Assembly (NCBI RefSeq): GCF_000447755.1
Contig: NZ_AUNE01000047.1
Coordinates: 1 to 54,408, forward strand
Reading direction: 5' to 3'
DNA length: 54,408 bases
Origin: Bacteriovorax sp. BSW11_IV
GTDB taxonomy: Bacteria; Bdellovibrionota; Bacteriovoracia; Bacteriovoracales; Bacteriovoracaceae
Below are positions 46,155-54,408 of this stretch, in pieces. The position numbers and the translations under genes are program-made. The notes beneath the pieces are model-generated. The model saw nothing but the letters and a program-made list of their open reading frames with translations. It was not told the origin of the DNA and searched no databases. How positions within the stretch are numbered: position 1 is the stretch's first letter; every line of letters begins with the position of its first letter.

Positions 46155-48401
46155 ATGAATAAAGACAAGTACATTACTCTTAAATTGAACGAATATGCTT
46201 TAAATCTCATCAAGTTAAATAGGAGAAGTATTAGTTCTGATTTGTGGGAATATATCCATGGGCTATTAACAAAAAAACAAGTTTTGAGATTAAACAATTC
46301 CATCTTGAGTGAAATGCAGAAGTTTTCGAAGCAGACATCAACTTACCGAGAAGGACGTGTAGGATTTCCTAAGCGAGGAATAAGAGAAGTCATTTTAGAT
46401 GATAAATTTTTAGATGAGTATAGACGAGACCTTGGCGGTGGAGTTTTTGACTCGACAGAATGGGCCTTGTGCATTGAGAAGTTATATTTAAATGACAAAG
46501 AAGGTTATCAAAAGCTGGTAGATCAAACGAGTCTTTTATTAATTAATAATACTAAAAAAGCACAGAAAGAATCACCATTTTATAGAAATCTGAAACAAAT
46601 AAGTAAAGCTTTTGAGCTTGATGAATTTGAAGTAGAGATTGTGGCCTTTTTTTATCTTTTAGATATTGATGATTCCTTATCTACGTTAACAAGGTCGAAA
46701 TATTTTCAATTGGATAAGATTGTTAAATCTACAACGATTTTAGGGAAAATCTTTGGAGTGAATCAATATGAGATGAAAAGATACCTTTCGAGAAAATCAA
46801 GATTGATAAGCGCTGGACTTTTTGAAGTAGGATATGATGATATAAATCTTTCAAATTTTGTTAAATTTTATCTTTCAGGAATTGTTGTGAATTCAATTGC
46901 GGACAATTTTTTCACAAAAATTGAGAGCGATACAATTCTTGAATTAAACGCTCATTTTATAGCTCCAAAAAATATTGAAACTATTTGTAATTTGATAAGA
47001 ATGGAAAAAGGTGCACATATTTTACTTTATGGAAGTCCTGGAACAGGGAAGACAGAGTTTTCAAAATCAATAGCTAAATTTCTTAATAAAGATATCTATT
47101 TTATTAATCAAGCTGATGAAGATGATAAAGAAGATTTCTCTCATCGCAAAAGTGCAATTGTTGCGGCCCGAAATATCTTAAGTAAAGATTCAATTATAGT
47201 GGTTGATGAATGTGATTCAATTTTAAATATTAAAAAACAATTTTCTCTATTTTTTGATATTGATGATTCTAAGGATACTAAATCATGGTTAAATAATCTT
47301 CTTGATAATTCTTCTCATACTATTATTTGGATTACAAATACCGTCGAAAATATTGACTCTTCAACGCGAAGGAGATTTTCTTACAGTCAAGAATTTAAGG
47401 ATTTATCAAAAAAGCAGAGAGAAAAGGTTTGGCGAACGGTAATAGATCAAAATGATATTGATTTTATTAATGATGAGGATGTCGCTTATTTTTCTACCAA
47501 GTATCACATTAATTCGGGAGGAATATCATTAGCAGTAAGAGATTTGCTTAAAATGAAGGGCGTTACCTTGAGAGATGATCGATTATCAATTCTTGAAAAT
47601 ATTTTAAATCAACATGAAGGCTTTGTTTTTCAAAATAAGGCAAGAATGATTGACATAGATCCAGCATATAATATTAATGTTCTTAATACGAGTTCTTCAA
47701 TAGGATTGCTTCTTGAAAAAATGAAAAAATTTACTAACTATTCAAGAGGTGGTGACAATAGATTAATTCAAAATTTTAATATCTTGCTTTACGGTCCATC
47801 AGGAACAGGGAAGACAGAGAGTGTTAAGTATCTCGCAGAAGAGCTTGGACTTGATCTTGTTGTAAAAAGGTTAAGCGATATAAAATCAAAATGGTATGGT
47901 GAAACGTTGAAGAATATTTCTTCAATTTTTCATGACGCTTCAAATTCGTCAAAAATCTTGTTTTTGGATGAAGCAGATAGCTTTTTTGTCGATCGCATGC
48001 GCTCTACAAATAATTCTCATATTGAAGAGACGAATGAGATTTTAAATCAAATGGAAAATTACCGAGGAATTCTGATTTGTTCTACCAATTTATTCGAGAA
48101 TATGGATCAAGCAGTACTTAGACGATTTACTTATAAAATTTCATTTGATTATTTAAGTAATGAAGGCAAGAAAGTGCTTTTTAGTAAATATTTTAAAGAA
48201 TATATGAAAAATAATGATTTAAATTTTCTAACCGATAAATTTGATGAAATAAAGTACTTGACCCCAGGTGATTTTAAAGTTGTTAAGCAGAAATTTTTCT
48301 TTAATGATAACGTGAATGTCGGAGAGATACTGAGTGAGCTAGCGTATGAGTCATCTCTTAAAAAAATTAATACTAGAAAAGTTGGTTTAAAAAAGGTGTG
48401 A
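46155..48401 (+). CDS. Double AAA+ ATPase
   Basis: The protein (748 aa) has an N-terminal helical region (1-270) not recognised, then two AAA+ modules. Module 1 has Walker A GSPGTGKTEFSKSIAKF (about residue 292), Walker B SIIVVDECDSIL and a polar sensor TNTVENIDSSTRRRF. Module 2 has Walker A GPSGTGKTESVKYLAEE (about residue 546), Walker B ILFLDEADSFF and the arginine-finger region DQAVLRRFTYK. The layout recalls hexameric unfoldases, but no protease-docking motif is visible. The next gene starts 3 bp later. The context of defence genes suggests a role in sensing or remodelling; this is inference. Confidence 0.85.
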   Translation: MNKDKYITLKLNEYALNLIKLNRRSISSDLWEYIHGLLTKKQVLRLNNSILSEMQKFSKQTSTYREGRVGFPKRGIREVILDDKFLDEYRRDLGGGVFDSTEWALCIEKLYLNDKEGYQKLVDQTSLLLINNTKKAQKESPFYRNLKQISKAFELDEFEVEIVAFFYLLDIDDSLSTLTRSKYFQLDKIVKSTTILGKIFGVNQYEMKRYLSRKSRLISAGLFEVGYDDINLSNFVKFYLSGIVVNSIADNFFTKIESDTILELNAHFIAPKNIETICNLIRMEKGAHILLYGSPGTGKTEFSKSIAKFLNKDIYFINQADEDDKEDFSHRKSAIVAARNILSKDSIIVVDECDSILNIKKQFSLFFDIDDSKDTKSWLNNLLDNSSHTIIWITNTVENIDSSTRRRFSYSQEFKDLSKKQREKVWRTVIDQNDIDFINDEDVAYFSTKYHINSGGISLAVRDLLKMKGVTLRDDRLSILENILNQHEGFVFQNKARMIDIDPAYNINVLNTSSSIGLLLEKMKKFTNYSRGGDNRLIQNFNILLYGPSGTGKTESVKYLAEELGLDLVVKRLSDIKSKWYGETLKNISSIFHDASNSSKILFLDEADSFFVDRMRSTNNSHIEETNEILNQMENYRGILICSTNLFENMDQAVLRRFTYKISFDYLSNEGKKVLFSKYFKEYMKNNDLNFLTDKFDEIKYLTPGDFKVVKQKFFFNDNVNVGEILSELAYESSLKKINTRKVGLKKV

Positions 48402-48404
48402 ATT

Positions 48405-48728
48405 ATGAAAAGCTTAAAGAGTATTCAAGACGTAGAAGTTTTACTGTATACGGATGGAGAAAAAGAGGAGTTTTATCCTATTGATGAAATTTTCTTTGCA
48501 AATGATAAAACTGCTCGCTTGGAGATGAAGTCAGATAAGCGAGAAGAGAAGCAACAAATAATTATTCGCCTAAATGAGGATAACTCGTTCTCCTATAAGT
48601 CAGATTTGATGATAGATGCAAGTAATTTCTTTGATCTTAAGATTATTTCAAAAAACAAAGATGAAATTCATCTTACTGAAGTTTGTGAGGCAGGGGATGA
48701 CTATGTTGAAATCATACTGTCACTTTGA
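48405..48728 (+). CDS. Small protein of unknown function in AAA+ operon
   Basis: The protein (107 aa) is beta-rich and acidic, without signal or membrane segment (DVEVLLYTDGEKEEFYPIDE; FSYKSDLMIDASNFFDLKII). It starts 3 bp after the AAA+ stop, so translation is probably coupled. It could be an adaptor for the AAA+ ring; there is no direct evidence. I do not recognise a family. Confidence 0.65.
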   Translation: MKSLKSIQDVEVLLYTDGEKEEFYPIDEIFFANDKTARLEMKSDKREEKQQIIIRLNEDNSFSYKSDLMIDASNFFDLKIISKNKDEIHLTEVCEAGDDYVEIILSL

Positions 48729-48776
48729 CTAAGTTTATACTAAATGGAAGTCACATAAAGATTATTCGAGGGGTTT

Positions 48777-49436
48777 ATGGAACTTAATACTATTATAGAA
48801 ACGCTTAAGCTGAATAAGAAAGAGAAAAATATAATAGTATTAGCTTCAAGACCTGCCATGGGGAAGTCTTCCTTGGCCATGAAAATTGCGGTTTCGTTTA
48901 TTCAAAGTGAAAAAAAGGCAGTGGGCTATTTTTCTTTAGAGATGTCAGAAGAAAATTTTAATAAAAGACTAACTACAATTAGCGACAAAGGTGTAATGGA
49001 ATCACTGCATGATAAGCTTTATGTGATAGATGATTCTGACTCAGATCAACTGGAATTGATAACTTCTATCAAAGAGATTAATGGCAAAGATCAACTAGGC
49101 TTGGTGGTCATAGACTATATTCAGCTAATGAGATGTTATTTTTGCGATAAAAAACTAGAAGTAATAATGAGTGAATTGGTACTGATATCCCATGAATTGA
49201 ATTTACCAATATTAATTTTATCTCAATTGAATAGAGGGGTAGAGGGCAGAGATGAAAAGAGGCCCCAAATATCGGATTTAGATGAGTCTAGAGAATTAGT
49301 TGATTTCTCAGATACAGTAATGTTTCTTTATCGTGACAATTATTACGGCCATGAAAATAGCCAATATAGTCAAGCTGAACTAATCATCGCAAAGAGCGAA
49401 GGCTACTCTCATACCATTAAATTTGAGCTGTTCTAA
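48777..49436 (+). CDS. Stand-alone DnaB-type RecA-core ATPase
   Basis: The protein (219 aa) matches only the C-terminal helicase domain of DnaB: Walker A VLASRPAMGKSSLAMKIA, GYFSLEMSEE, Walker B LGLVVIDYIQLM, ILSQLNRGVEGRDEKRPQIS and DTVMFLYRDNYY. The N-terminal primase-binding domain and linker of replicative helicases are absent, so it is about half normal size. The motifs are intact, so ATP binding is likely. It lies 48 bp after the small gene on the same strand. It might be an independent RecA-like ATPase of the defence cluster or a decoy of the replicative helicase; both are guesses. Confidence 0.82.
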   Translation: MELNTIIETLKLNKKEKNIIVLASRPAMGKSSLAMKIAVSFIQSEKKAVGYFSLEMSEENFNKRLTTISDKGVMESLHDKLYVIDDSDSDQLELITSIKEINGKDQLGLVVIDYIQLMRCYFCDKKLEVIMSELVLISHELNLPILILSQLNRGVEGRDEKRPQISDLDESRELVDFSDTVMFLYRDNYYGHENSQYSQAELIIAKSEGYSHTIKFELF

Positions 49437-49532
49437 TTTTGATTTGAATCACCTTGCGAATAACTACGTTAAGAAATCTTGACTAACTTGTATTAAGTTG
49501 TGACCGATAATCCAATGTTCACTTATTAATTT

Positions 49533-51500
49533 ATGAGGCTTATGGCAAATCCAAGATACTTAACAAAGTCCAGGTTTAAGCTCGGTCGCGAATGCCCGAC
49601 AAAGCTCTTTTATACAAAAAAGAAAGAATATCTTGACTCTAAAATGGATGATGCTTTTCTCGCTGCACTTGCCGAAGGTGGTTTTCAAGTAGGTGAGCTT
49701 GCAAAATGTTATCATCCAAATGGTCATGATATTGCAACATTGGACTATGAAGAGGCCGAGAAGCAAACAAAGAAGCTTTTAAAGGAAGATAAAGTAATTA
49801 TTTTCGAACCTGCCATAAGATACAAAAATCTTTTTATTCGAATTGATATACTTATTAAAGACGGTGATAATTTCGAGTTAATTGAAGTCAAGGCGAAATC
49901 TTTTAATAAAAAAGAAGATGAATTTGTTGGCAAGAGAGGTTCAATCTTATCTGGCTGGAGACCTTATCTCGAGGATGTTGCATTTCAAAAGTATGTCCTC
50001 TCATCGAAATTTCCTGATGCAAATATCGAAAGTTTTCTTATGATGGCCGATAAGAATGCTCTTTGCTCAACAGATGGCCTCAATCAAAAGTTTAGAATAG
50101 TTCGCGATGAAGACAGTCGAAAGGGATGTGATGTCTCTAATTCTTTAACAAAGCAAGATCTAAAAAAGAAAATTCTAATTAAGGTTCCAGTCGATGATGA
50201 GATTGATCTAATCATGGAAGATGGAACGTTTGTGAAAGAGATTAAAAGGCTGTCGTTAGCATATGAGAAAGATGAAAAGATAATTAGTGATATTGGAGCG
50301 CATTGTTCTGGCTGTGAATTTGACTGTTCAATCGAAGAAGAAAAACAGGGATATAAAAGTGGGTTTCGTGAGTGTTGGAAGGATTCTCTTGGTTGGAAGG
50401 ACAGAGACTTTGAAGATCCGAATGTATTAGAGATATGGTCATTTACGGGTAAAGATAAGCTGATAAATGATGGAAGAATTAAACTATCTGATTTAAAAAT
50501 TGAAGACTTTGAACCAATTACAGATGGTAAACCTGGGGTTTCAGCATCGATGCGTAAGTGGCTTCAAGTTGAGAAAGTTAAGAATAATGATGAGACTCCT
50601 TTTTTTGATGCTCATGGTTTTAAGCTGGAGATGGATTCTTGGACATATCCTCTACACTTTATTGATTTTGAAACAAGCATGGTGGCCATTCCTTTCAATA
50701 AAGGACGTCGCCCTTATGAAGCAATAGCTTTTCAGTTTTCCCATCATATTGTCTATAAAGATGGGACTGTTGAGCATGCTGGAGAGTATTTAAATACTGA
50801 GCCTGGGGCTTTCCCAAATTATGAATTTCTAAGAGAGTTCAAACGTCAGCTTGAAGGTGATAATGGAACGATCTTTAGATATTCCCCCCATGAGAATACA
50901 TTTTTAAATCACATCTATCGTCAATTAAGAGAAGATGACTCTGTTGCTGATCGTGAAGAGCTTTGTGAATTCATAAAGATCATTACAACGTCTTCAAGTT
51001 CTATGGCAGAGAAATGGGAGGGCGAGAGAAATATGGTGGATCTATGGCATCTTGTGAAGAGGTACTACTATGATCCAGCGACTCGTGGTTCAAATTCCAT
51101 CAAAGCAGTGCTTCCTGTGATTTTAAACTCTAGTGACTTTCTCAAGGAGAAGTATGGGAAACCAATCTACGGGACTTCGAGCGGCATTAAAAGTTTAAAC
51201 TTCAAAAACTGGCAGTGGCTTGAGATAAAGGATGGCAAAGTTGTTGATCCATACAAGAGGCTTCCAAAAATGTTTACTGATGTTAGTGATAAGAATTTAG
51301 ATCTTCTGACTAAAGATGATGAGCTTGCAAACGGTGGAGCAGCTTTGACTGCTTATGGACGTATGCAATTTTCTGAAATGAGTGAATGCGAGCGAAAAGA
51401 ACTTTCAAGTGCTCTTCTTCGTTATTGTGAGCTTGATACAATGGCCATGGTGATGATTTTTGAGGCTTGGAGGGAGTGGCAAGGAGAAGTAGATGTATGA
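49533..51500 (+). CDS. DUF2779 protein: Cas4-like nuclease plus DEDD exonuclease
   Basis: The protein (655 aa; ATG 49542 is an equally possible start). The head LTKSRFKLGRECPTKLFY is typical of DUF2779. Residues to about 290 look like a Cas4/RecB-type PD-(D/E)XK nuclease: FIRIDILIKDGDNFELIEVK, with a Cys cluster CSGCEFDC and a later FRECW that could hold an Fe-S cluster with the first Cys. From about residue 370 an RNase H-like exonuclease follows: HFIDFETSM, RYSPHENTFLNH, MVDLWHLVKRYYYD and RYCELDTMAMV give the DEDD acids. It overlaps the first reverse transcriptase gene by 8 bp, so the two are coupled. It may trim or destroy nucleic acid made or sensed by the RTs (inference). Confidence 0.85.
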   Translation: MRLMANPRYLTKSRFKLGRECPTKLFYTKKKEYLDSKMDDAFLAALAEGGFQVGELAKCYHPNGHDIATLDYEEAEKQTKKLLKEDKVIIFEPAIRYKNLFIRIDILIKDGDNFELIEVKAKSFNKKEDEFVGKRGSILSGWRPYLEDVAFQKYVLSSKFPDANIESFLMMADKNALCSTDGLNQKFRIVRDEDSRKGCDVSNSLTKQDLKKKILIKVPVDDEIDLIMEDGTFVKEIKRLSLAYEKDEKIISDIGAHCSGCEFDCSIEEEKQGYKSGFRECWKDSLGWKDRDFEDPNVLEIWSFTGKDKLINDGRIKLSDLKIEDFEPITDGKPGVSASMRKWLQVEKVKNNDETPFFDAHGFKLEMDSWTYPLHFIDFETSMVAIPFNKGRRPYEAIAFQFSHHIVYKDGTVEHAGEYLNTEPGAFPNYEFLREFKRQLEGDNGTIFRYSPHENTFLNHIYRQLREDDSVADREELCEFIKIITTSSSSMAEKWEGERNMVDLWHLVKRYYYDPATRGSNSIKAVLPVILNSSDFLKEKYGKPIYGTSSGIKSLNFKNWQWLEIKDGKVVDPYKRLPKMFTDVSDKNLDLLTKDDELANGGAALTAYGRMQFSEMSECERKELSSALLRYCELDTMAMVMIFEAWREWQGEVDV

Positions 51501-52755
51501 TCAAAGTATAGGGAAGTCTATATTAAATAGATTTTTATACAATAGCGACTTTGATAAGGGTTCTGACTATCATGATCAAAAGGTGAAGTTAATTAACTTG
51601 GCTTTGAAATATTTACATAAAGGAACTCCGCCTACAGTTTGCGTTACAAAATTTAAAGGTAAAAACCTCTATAAAATTAAGGAAGTTCCAATTGAATTAT
51701 TGCAAAGAAGGGTATCTCATACTCTTAAAACAATTTTGGGAGTTAAGGTTGATGATCGTAATAAGATAATTAGAAAACTTAAACTTCTTCTTGAAGATGA
51801 TGCTCCCTTTGTGGTTTATCGATTAGATATTAAAAATTTTTATGAGTCGGTAAATGTTGAACCATTTTTTGAAGAGATCGAAAGAAATCCTGTTTTTACT
51901 AAGGAAACAGTTTCAGTCGTAAGAAATATGTTTAAATTCTATGAGTATAATGCGGGGTTACCTAGAGGTTTTGCATTAAGCTCTGTCATATCGGAAATAT
52001 TACTTAGTGATTTTGATAAGAATGTGAAAAATTTAAGTGAAACATTTTTTTATTCTAGATTCGTGGATGATATTTTTATAATTACCGGAAAGCAAGATCA
52101 GATATCAATGGATCATTTTATTGAAAAGATTGAAGATAAGTTACCTACCCCCTTAAAGTTAAATGCAAAGAAGGAAGAAATACATATTTTTAAGAACGTT
52201 AAGGAAGACTTTCCAAGTTGTAAAAAAATAAACTATTTAGGATATTTATTAAAAGTAAGTACTTTAGAGAATAAAGGACCACGAAGTGTTCAAGTCGATA
52301 TATCCTACAAGAAAGTAAATAAAATTAAATCGCGAATTAATTATTCCATTCTAGACTTTTTAGATTATGTTGAAAGAAATGGACAAGATTCATATGGGAA
52401 TGCTCTTACTATCCTCAAAGATAGGATTAAGTTTTTAACAGGAAATTTCAGCTTTGTTGACTATAAGAAAGGTCAGAAAAGAAATTCAGGAATTTATTTT
52501 AACTATCACTTAATTGATTATAAAGAAAGTGAAAGTCTGAAGGAATTAGATAAGTATTTGATAAGAACTTTGTCTGGGAAAACTGGAGAGGTTTCTGAAA
52601 AACTAAATGCACTTTCTATTAAATATCAGTATATATGTGATGAATTAAATACAATGAAAACTTATTCGTTTGTTCATGGATTTAAGAAAAGAACCTTTCA
52701 TCATTTTAACTCATATCGGTTAAATGTTATTCAAAAGTGTTGGAAATATGTATAA
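51493..52755 (+). CDS. drt3a: Reverse transcriptase, Drt3a-like
   Basis: The protein (420 aa) has AAGGAG just ahead of its ATG, inside the DUF2779 gene. RT motif A is VYRLDIKNFYESV (Asp 112), motif B GLPRGFALSSVISEILLSDF, motif C YSRFVDDIFII (Asp 192 and 193), and motif E INYLGYLL. All three catalytic Asp are present. There is no maturase, endonuclease or CRISPR-Cas1 part, so it is not a group II intron or CRISPR RT. It overlaps a second RT gene by 8 bp. Two adjacent RTs are the hallmark of DRT3; in that scheme this is the shorter first subunit (UG3 group). A profile search is needed to confirm the subfamily. Confidence 0.82.
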   Translation: MYDQSIGKSILNRFLYNSDFDKGSDYHDQKVKLINLALKYLHKGTPPTVCVTKFKGKNLYKIKEVPIELLQRRVSHTLKTILGVKVDDRNKIIRKLKLLLEDDAPFVVYRLDIKNFYESVNVEPFFEEIERNPVFTKETVSVVRNMFKFYEYNAGLPRGFALSSVISEILLSDFDKNVKNLSETFFYSRFVDDIFIITGKQDQISMDHFIEKIEDKLPTPLKLNAKKEEIHIFKNVKEDFPSCKKINYLGYLLKVSTLENKGPRSVQVDISYKKVNKIKSRINYSILDFLDYVERNGQDSYGNALTILKDRIKFLTGNFSFVDYKKGQKRNSGIYFNYHLIDYKESESLKELDKYLIRTLSGKTGEVSEKLNALSIKYQYICDELNTMKTYSFVHGFKKRTFHHFNSYRLNVIQKCWKYV

Positions 52756-54408
52756 AAAGAAAGAGAAAAGATTTATCGATAAAAGAGATAAATATCGAGT
52801 TCTTCTTACCGAAACTTTACCTTATGAAGTGCCAATAATTTTTAGTAATGAAGAATTTTATAAACTTCTTAAAGACAATAGAGAAATAGATGAGTCAATT
52901 AAAAAAATTTTGAATAGGATAATATATACTTTTTTTAATTATACGATTCCATATAAGTACAATATACTTAAAGATGCAGACTCTTTTCGTCGTCTTGCAC
53001 TGTTGCATCCATCTTCTCAGTACCAATTTGTTTCTTTTTATGAAAAATACTCTGAACTGATTTGCGAATATTGTAACAAAACAAGAATCTCTTTAAGAGC
53101 TCCTGAAAAAGTGGCATCTGCATTTTATGTCGAAAATGAAGATGAAGATAAGAATAAATTTGTAGAAAATAATATTGAAGAAGTTGAGAGCGAGCTAATG
53201 TATAAACATTTAAGCTCATATTTTAGCTACAGAGGGTATAATAAAATCTATAAATTTTATAACTCTAAGGAGTTTATTGAACTTGAAAGGAAGTTTCAAC
53301 ATTTATGGAATGTAGATGTCGCAAGCTGTTTTGACAGTATTTATACTCATACAATTGCTTGGGCTGTAAAAAACAAGGAATATGTTAAAGATAATGTTAA
53401 TTTCTTAAATGGCTTTGGGCCAATATTTGATTCATTAATTCAAAAATCAAACTATAATGAGACAAATGGTATCCCTATTGGACCTGAGGTGAGTCGTATT
53501 TTTGCCGAAATAATTTTTCAAGATATTGATTCTACTGTTATCTCTGAACTGTCAGGAAAAGATTATAAATATGGACAACATTATTCTCTTAAGAGATATG
53601 TCGATGACTACTTTCTATTTGCGAATAACGCTAAAACCGCTTCTGTTGTTTTAAGAACATTGAAAGTGAAGTTAAAAGAGTACAATTTTCATACTAATGA
53701 ACGTAAGCTAATTAAGACAGAAAGACCTTTTTTAAGTTCAAAATCAAAACTTATTAAGGAAGTTCAACATGTTGTCGCAGACTTTTTTAATGAGTTGTTT
53801 GACTACGGATTTGATAATGAAATTGAACTTTGTAAACCTAAGAGCATTAAAAAAAATAAAAAGCTTATTAAGTTTATCGACTTAATCAAGATGAGTTGTA
53901 TTTCAAATGAAATGACATATACCGATGTTTCAAGTTTCTTGCAGGGATGCTTCTATAGTAGAGTTAAGAAGAATATCCAAATTTTAGAAAAAATGGATTT
54001 TGAGTATTTAATTGAAAACCGTTCTGATTTCGTTAAAAATTTTAGCCTTATCATTGAACTAATGTTCTTTTTCTATTCAACATCCCCAAGTGTTTCATCA
54101 TCATATAGCTTTGCCAAAAGTTTAATAATAATAAAAAGATTTTTTTCATCAGATAAGTTTGAGCATGAGCACAGTGTTGAACAATTAATATATGATTATA
54201 CTATATCATTTTTTGAGAATAGCATGTTGGAAAGTGTCGAGGACAGACCTTTTAAAGAGATTCAGCTCGAGTCGCTTAATTTATTGATTGTTCTCGCTGA
54301 ATTAGATAATAAACTATTAGTTCCCGAAAGCTTTCTGTCTAAAATGTTTGATGGAAGACAGAATGATTACTTCGAAATAATTGTTCTACTATTTTATATG
54401 AAAGATCA
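52748..54408 (+). CDS. drt3b: Reverse transcriptase, Drt3b-like (3' end outside window)
   Basis: ATG at 52748 overlaps the first RT's stop region by 8 bp; the frame stays open to the last base (553 codons). After a 180-residue helical head come motif A WNVDVASCFDSIYTHTIAW (Asp 190), motif B GIPIGPEVSRIFAEIIFQ, and motif C LKRYVDDYFLFAN (Asp 286 and 287). The remaining 250 residues are helical, as in the abortive-infection type RTs. The catalytic Asp are intact. The size so far and the partner RT fit the second, larger DRT3 subunit (UG8 group). The missing end prevents a full length check. Confidence 0.82.
   Translation, partial: MYKKKEKRFIDKRDKYRVLLTETLPYEVPIIFSNEEFYKLLKDNREIDESIKKILNRIIYTFFNYTIPYKYNILKDADSFRRLALLHPSSQYQFVSFYEKYSELICEYCNKTRISLRAPEKVASAFYVENEDEDKNKFVENNIEEVESELMYKHLSSYFSYRGYNKIYKFYNSKEFIELERKFQHLWNVDVASCFDSIYTHTIAWAVKNKEYVKDNVNFLNGFGPIFDSLIQKSNYNETNGIPIGPEVSRIFAEIIFQDIDSTVISELSGKDYKYGQHYSLKRYVDDYFLFANNAKTASVVLRTLKVKLKEYNFHTNERKLIKTERPFLSSKSKLIKEVQHVVADFFNELFDYGFDNEIELCKPKSIKKNKKLIKFIDLIKMSCISNEMTYTDVSSFLQGCFYSRVKKNIQILEKMDFEYLIENRSDFVKNFSLIIELMFFFYSTSPSVSSSYSFAKSLIIIKRFFSSDKFEHEHSVEQLIYDYTISFFENSMLESVEDRPFKEIQLESLNLLIVLAELDNKLLVPESFLSKMFDGRQNDYFEIIVLLFYMKD

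Follow-up and report, generated by a model that had tools for sequence, protein, structure and literature searches.

The question raised by this locus is whether a predicted double nuclease, encoded just ahead of a pair of reverse transcriptases (RTs), is a component of the defence system DRT3 or an accessory that also accompanies other systems. The DNA analysed (hereafter, the window) is the entire 54,408-nt contig C47 of the 3.65-Mb genome of Bacteriovorax sp. BSW11_IV, and it ends within the last of three forward-strand genes: a DUF2779 nuclease gene (49533..51500; 655 aa), drt3a (51493..52755; 420 aa), encoding the RNA-templated RT of DRT3, and drt3b (52748..54408; first 553 aa, open at the contig end), encoding the protein-templated RT. 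The nuclease gene and drt3a overlap by 8 bp (ATGTATGA, 51493–51500), as do drt3a and drt3b (ATGTATAA, 52748–52755). These ORFs and coordinates agree with the initial annotation, made from the sequence alone, and the gene order and overlaps bear out its view of a co-directional nuclease, drt3a and drt3b in one unit. That annotation had put the second RT at 553 aa or more; the window indeed stops inside drt3b, and the remainder was found from base 3 of another contig of the same genome (C25:3-305), where it matches positions 552–651 of the PDLC02176 profile. The 8-bp overlap between drt3a and drt3b is common in DRT3, being the same in E. coli, Novosphingobium, Acetobacter and Phaeobacter. Upstream of the unit, the stretch at 46155–49436 encodes a 748-aa double-AAA ATPase with matches to IetA (PADLOC, E = 4e-39), a 107-aa protein that matches nothing in Pfam and a free-standing DnaB C-terminal domain of 219 aa; these genes possibly constitute another defence module.

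The two RTs were assigned to the DRT3 families by profile searches. The first matches Drt3a (UG3; PADLOC PDLC02175) over residues 1–419 with an E-value of 5.8e-108, against 2.5e-21 for the next non-Drt3a family, and the second matches Drt3b (UG8; PDLC02176) with an E-value of 2.7e-180, against 7e-44 for the next non-Drt3b family; the Pfam matches to RVT_1 have E-values of 3e-14 and 1e-11, respectively. The proposal that the pair represents DRT3, for which a comparison with the UG3 and UG8 profiles had been called for, was therefore upheld. In an alignment that took in the window, the closest relative (L004) and seven plasmid DRT3 loci, D112, D192 and D193 of Drt3a, together with other columns, are invariant among nine Drt3a proteins, and the catalytic aspartates of Drt3b (D190/D286/D287) are present. 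E23 and R250 of Drt3b align with E22 and R241 of E. coli Drt3b, which gate the alternating addition of dA and dC (PMC13174585); the gate glutamate is replaced by aspartate in several of the aligned Drt3b loci, matching the account given in the same paper. The Drt3b C-terminus, which lies outside the window, reads NPYE in both C25 and L004, placing a tyrosine at the penultimate position, as with the priming tyrosine of E. coli Drt3b (Y666 of 667; PMC13174585). After the drt3b stop codon, approximately 150 nt are conserved between C25 and L004 before the similarity drops abruptly, and the candidate ncRNA of both contains TGTACACACTA, which includes the ACACAC template. ACACAC is also found downstream of drt3b in the seven plasmid loci and in G265, and both predicted ncRNA regions fold better than shuffled sequences (z = -2.8 and -3.0). 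Because the RT profiles, the gate and catalytic residues, the penultimate tyrosine and the ACACAC-containing ncRNA were all found, the locus is, as judged from its sequence, a complete, canonical DRT3 consisting of Drt3a, Drt3b and a downstream predicted ncRNA. It resembles the E. coli system (PMC13174585) in both RT families, the E/R gate, the penultimate tyrosine, the 8-bp overlap and the ACACAC-containing ncRNA, but differs in that a DUF2779 nuclease gene overlaps drt3a, a gene found in none of the E. coli and plasmid loci examined. DRT3 itself is already known; the locus is a DRT3 with an unreported accessory, and this accessory is its interesting part.

The nuclease matches DUF2779 (PF11074) with 81 bits, against a Pfam cut-off of 23.3 (E = 1e-22). 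DUF2779 is the only Pfam domain found in it, no model in PADLOC or NCBIfam matches, and the nuclease profile found no matches among PDB sequences. In the AlphaFold2 model (pLDDT 88, pTM 0.86), residues 4–294 match the Cas4 fold (7mi4, Z 11.3) and residues 371–655 match the exonuclease domain of family B DNA polymerases (Z 11–12). In the Cas4-like PD-(D/E)XK domain (approximately residues 4–294), D105, E118, K120 and Q152 are invariant in 35 of 35 homologues, whatever the partner, and so are four cysteines forming an Fe-S-type set (C21/C258/C261/C281). D378, E380, D503, Y631 and D635 of the exonuclease domain (approximately residues 371–655) are likewise invariant in all 35, and the Y631-x3-D635 spacing places this domain in the DEDDy class. 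The protein is thus predicted, with the model as a guide, to be a Cas4-type domain joined to a polymerase-B-type DEDDy 3′–5′ exonuclease. Its earlier description as a Cas4-like/DEDD double nuclease is consistent with the invariant residues and fold matches, and the alignments confirm the catalytic residues as intact in this protein and in both RTs.

In a 2014 classification, DUF2779 (family F.17 of the RNase H-like superfamily) was placed among presumed 3′–5′ exonucleases with a DUF83 (PD-(D/E)XK-like) domain (PMC3985635); the domain, its Cas4-like fusion and the predicted activity are the same here, but no link to defence was given there. UvrD-Cas4 and solo-Cas4 proteins are also Cas4-family nucleases outside CRISPR, and UvrD-Cas4 has been proposed to act as an ancillary factor in various defence pathways (PMC5704561). 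The present protein differs from UvrD-Cas4 in that its Cas4 domain is joined to a DEDDy exonuclease and not to a helicase, and from both groups in its linkage to DRT3, McrBC, SIR2-HerA, Gabija and other systems.

If the nuclease were a DRT3-specific component defining a variant of the system, as the initial annotation considered, it should be judged by its distribution among DRT3 loci. Both true Drt3a loci in the class of the window carry it, the window itself and its 75%-identical relative L004, a metagenome-assembled genome (MAG) of Halobacteriovoraceae that shares a family-level genome group with the host of the window (G028) and was the sole find when the genome contigs were searched with the Drt3a profile. 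L004 keeps the three-gene order with 72–78% protein identity to the window and different flanks. The nuclease tree is compatible both with one common origin of the two DRT3-linked copies (p-AU 0.53 for a single origin) and with their separate recruitment. However, the nuclease is present in only these two of the 14 DRT3 loci examined, being absent from eight plasmid loci, three E. coli loci and G265, which belongs to the same phylum and has DRT3. An overlap of a DUF2779 gene with the first RT did not prove to be a shared trait either, since only two of the 14 loci have the nuclease and the junction in L004 is a 0-bp gap instead of an overlap. Furthermore, nucleases 76–77% identical to that of the window, its nearest relatives, lie in McrBC and SIR2-HerA loci and head these operons. 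The census and the other partners rule out a DRT3-specific nuclease as the main reading, which we regard as very improbable. Because it is absent from most DRT3 loci and the same subfamily heads unrelated defence operons, the nuclease is a promiscuous accessory rather than a marker of a DRT3 subtype.

A homologue search covering 129 genomes from the class and 369 from the phylum revealed two DUF2779 subfamilies differing in length and neighbourhood, namely a long form (~650 aa, 41–85% identical), to which the nuclease of the window belongs, and the common short form (~500 aa, <30%). A PADLOC-type gene lies directly downstream of the long form in 19 of 43 loci, representing approximately 12 system types (L079 and L092 were assigned through homology to scanned neighbours, and L081 was counted via its second and third downstream genes), versus none of 18 for the short form, of whose 12 same-strand neighbours 10 were scanned and which showed one weak ZacA match 239 bp away. 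This difference is significant by the Fisher test (p = 5e-4), a value that serves as a guide only, related genomes being non-independent. The gene following the long form is co-directional in 36 of 43 loci, 22 of these within 30 bp, and several junctions consist of ATGA, TAATG or 8-bp overlaps. The genes found behind the nuclease include McrB/McrC (L076) and a McrB-like gene (L105), SIR2 and HerA (L077; in L081 after a 362-aa gene), GajA and GajB of Gabija (L080), OLD or AriA-like genes (L078 and L091), GmrSD (L094), a DNA methyltransferase gene (L083, with HsdM/HsdS in front), the PADLOC candidates PDC-S02, S06, S13, S14 and S36, and a Schlafen AlbA_2 gene on a Prosthecochloris plasmid. Within the class, two of the three HerA loci of this type have the nuclease, and one of 12 McrC loci lies in a McrBC pair directly after it. 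In roughly half of the long-form loci, the gene immediately behind the nuclease is not a recognised defence gene. In L083, L084, L103, L105 and L107, defence genes also lie in front of the nuclease, and clustering in islands therefore contributes to the association. These neighbourhoods nevertheless show the ~650-aa subfamily to be paired, exchangeably, with many defence operons of Bdellovibrionota and of some other phyla.

Several other features of these loci were noted. Genes immediately downstream of the nuclease without a PADLOC match (L103, 10991–11890; L111, 10700–12471; L112, 10674–11846; L121, 6904–7755; and a 312-aa gene in L114) are candidates for undescribed defence genes. In L130 (4229–8597), a SIR2-like/HerA-like gene pair, the likeness being judged by eye, overlaps at its 3′ end with a short-form DUF2779 gene, and the short form may thus occasionally join defence operons too. 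Nine long-form nucleases (L079, L080, L084, L085, L103, L105, L108, L109 and L120) carry a terminal alanine pair behind a run of charged residues (such as GKAAA or EEDAA) and others end soon after EAWREWIK; by analogy, the AA ends recall ssrA-type degradation signals. A phage-borne origin of the gene was rejected, as no match was found among 50,697 phage records. Six IMG/VR contigs carry the nuclease, some near BREX or SbcCD/Mrr-type genes and some near nothing recognised; in L143, L144 and L147, filed as viral, the homologues lie near BREX genes (PglZ, BrxL), a WYL regulator and SbcCD/Mrr-type genes.

On the nuclease tree, partner type changes 14 times, compared with a mean of 14.5 in shuffles, i.e. 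as if partners were distributed at random. A fixed insertion hotspot was also rejected, the loci having no common upstream DNA save in two closely related pairs. Synonymous sites are saturated between nuclease pairs with dN of just 0.1–0.2, so that dN/dS is not computable; low dN at saturated synonymous sites points to purifying selection on the nuclease. Single genes fronting many unrelated defence operons are known from BrxR/CapW (PMC9122601, PMC9122588) and CapK/CapS (PMC13373217), but those are transcription regulators, whereas the present protein is a predicted two-site DNA nuclease, in which neither a WYL/HTH nor a kinase/STAS domain was found with Pfam, PADLOC, NCBIfam or the structural model.

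Most Bdellovibrionota are predators. A putative sigma28/FliA-like promoter is predicted ahead of the unit on the forward strand (49483..49510), with a weak -35 element (CTAAC, 49483–49487), a 16-nt spacer and the -10 element CCGATAA (49504–49510). Ten of 41 long-form loci (the window, L076, L077, L078, L079, L105, L106, L108, L110 and L111) have CCGATAA no more than 100 nt ahead of the nuclease start, versus nine of 655 other ORFs (p = 1e-8, a somewhat flattering value because the motif was spotted in the upstream alignment before counting), and it is present whatever defence system follows the nuclease. CCGATAAG occurs 106 times in the genome of the host, versus 41 times for the reversed control. 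Attack-phase promoters of Bdellovibrio have the form TTAAG-N16-CCGATA (PMC3627812), and the box suggests that predatory bacteria express immune operons in the attack phase.

From the observed anatomy, active-site conservation, recurrent close placement ahead of unrelated defence systems and exchange of partners, we infer an ancillary action on DNA ends made by the partner. The nuclease would then be an exchangeable ancillary exonuclease, with DRT3 itself complete and canonical, an explanation to which we give about an even chance. The fate of DNA ends is most simply the step shared by such different partners. DEDDy domains act from the 3′ end. Cas4 proteins are reported to degrade single-stranded DNA chiefly from the 5′ end (PMC5704561), so that one protein could trim both ends. 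With restriction-type partners (McrBC, GmrSD, Gabija and OLD), it may finish the degradation of cut invader DNA, and with DRT3 it would probably attack the poly(dCdA)/poly(dTdG), or (CA/TG)n, product. E. coli DRT3 becomes toxic when RecBCD is missing and is triggered by a phage RecBCD inhibitor (PMC13174585); since RecBCD restrains the system there, a nuclease co-produced with DRT3 could do likewise, setting a threshold for the build-up of the toxic product. Under the sigma28-like promoter, the unit would be turned on while the predator swims freely in its attack phase. Against the ancillary explanation stand the loci with no recognised defence gene behind the nuclease and the island clustering; DRT3 and the other partners also work elsewhere without the nuclease, and the host has adjacent AddAB-like ORFs that could themselves restrain DRT3. 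A role as a plain substitute for RecBCD was rejected: none of the four genomes checked has RecC, yet the genome of the host has these AddAB-like ORFs.

The same distribution could arise if the nuclease were an independent defence or repair gene, and the operons behind it gained an attack-phase promoter and translational coupling with no common biochemistry. The sigma28-like box present irrespective of partner, the random placement of partner types on the tree, the stand-alone copies (L085, L087, L106 and L110) and the lack of a common insertion hotspot in the upstream flanks would all fit; however, coding regions overlap tightly at many junctions, the three-gene order is kept in two genera and the short subfamily has no such link, and we consider this explanation rather unlikely. 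A nuclease serving as the killing or clearing arm, activated by a signal or product of the partner to degrade phage or host DNA, appears more doubtful still. Both of its sites are invariant, and the step after DRT3 repeat DNA is still open (PMC13174585), but McrBC, Gabija and SIR2-HerA already have their own nucleases or NADases, and E. coli DRT3 defends without the nuclease.

In a partial literature search, no description of DUF2779 in defence was found. Regulators common to unrelated immune operons are known, but for this enzyme no such sharing was found described. We tentatively propose, as a possibility that falls somewhat short of an even chance, that the ~650-aa subfamily is a general-purpose immune-operon nuclease for a dozen-odd mechanistically different anti-phage systems, which would process or limit their DNA products under the attack-phase sigma28 programme in predators. 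An exonuclease from the same unit gives direct access to two questions about DRT3, how cells tolerate its toxic repeat DNA and what acts downstream of it. Should the link prove functional, the nuclease gene could mark undiscovered defence systems, several of its downstream partners having no PADLOC match, and the fate of DNA ends would be a common step across systems that have been studied in isolation.
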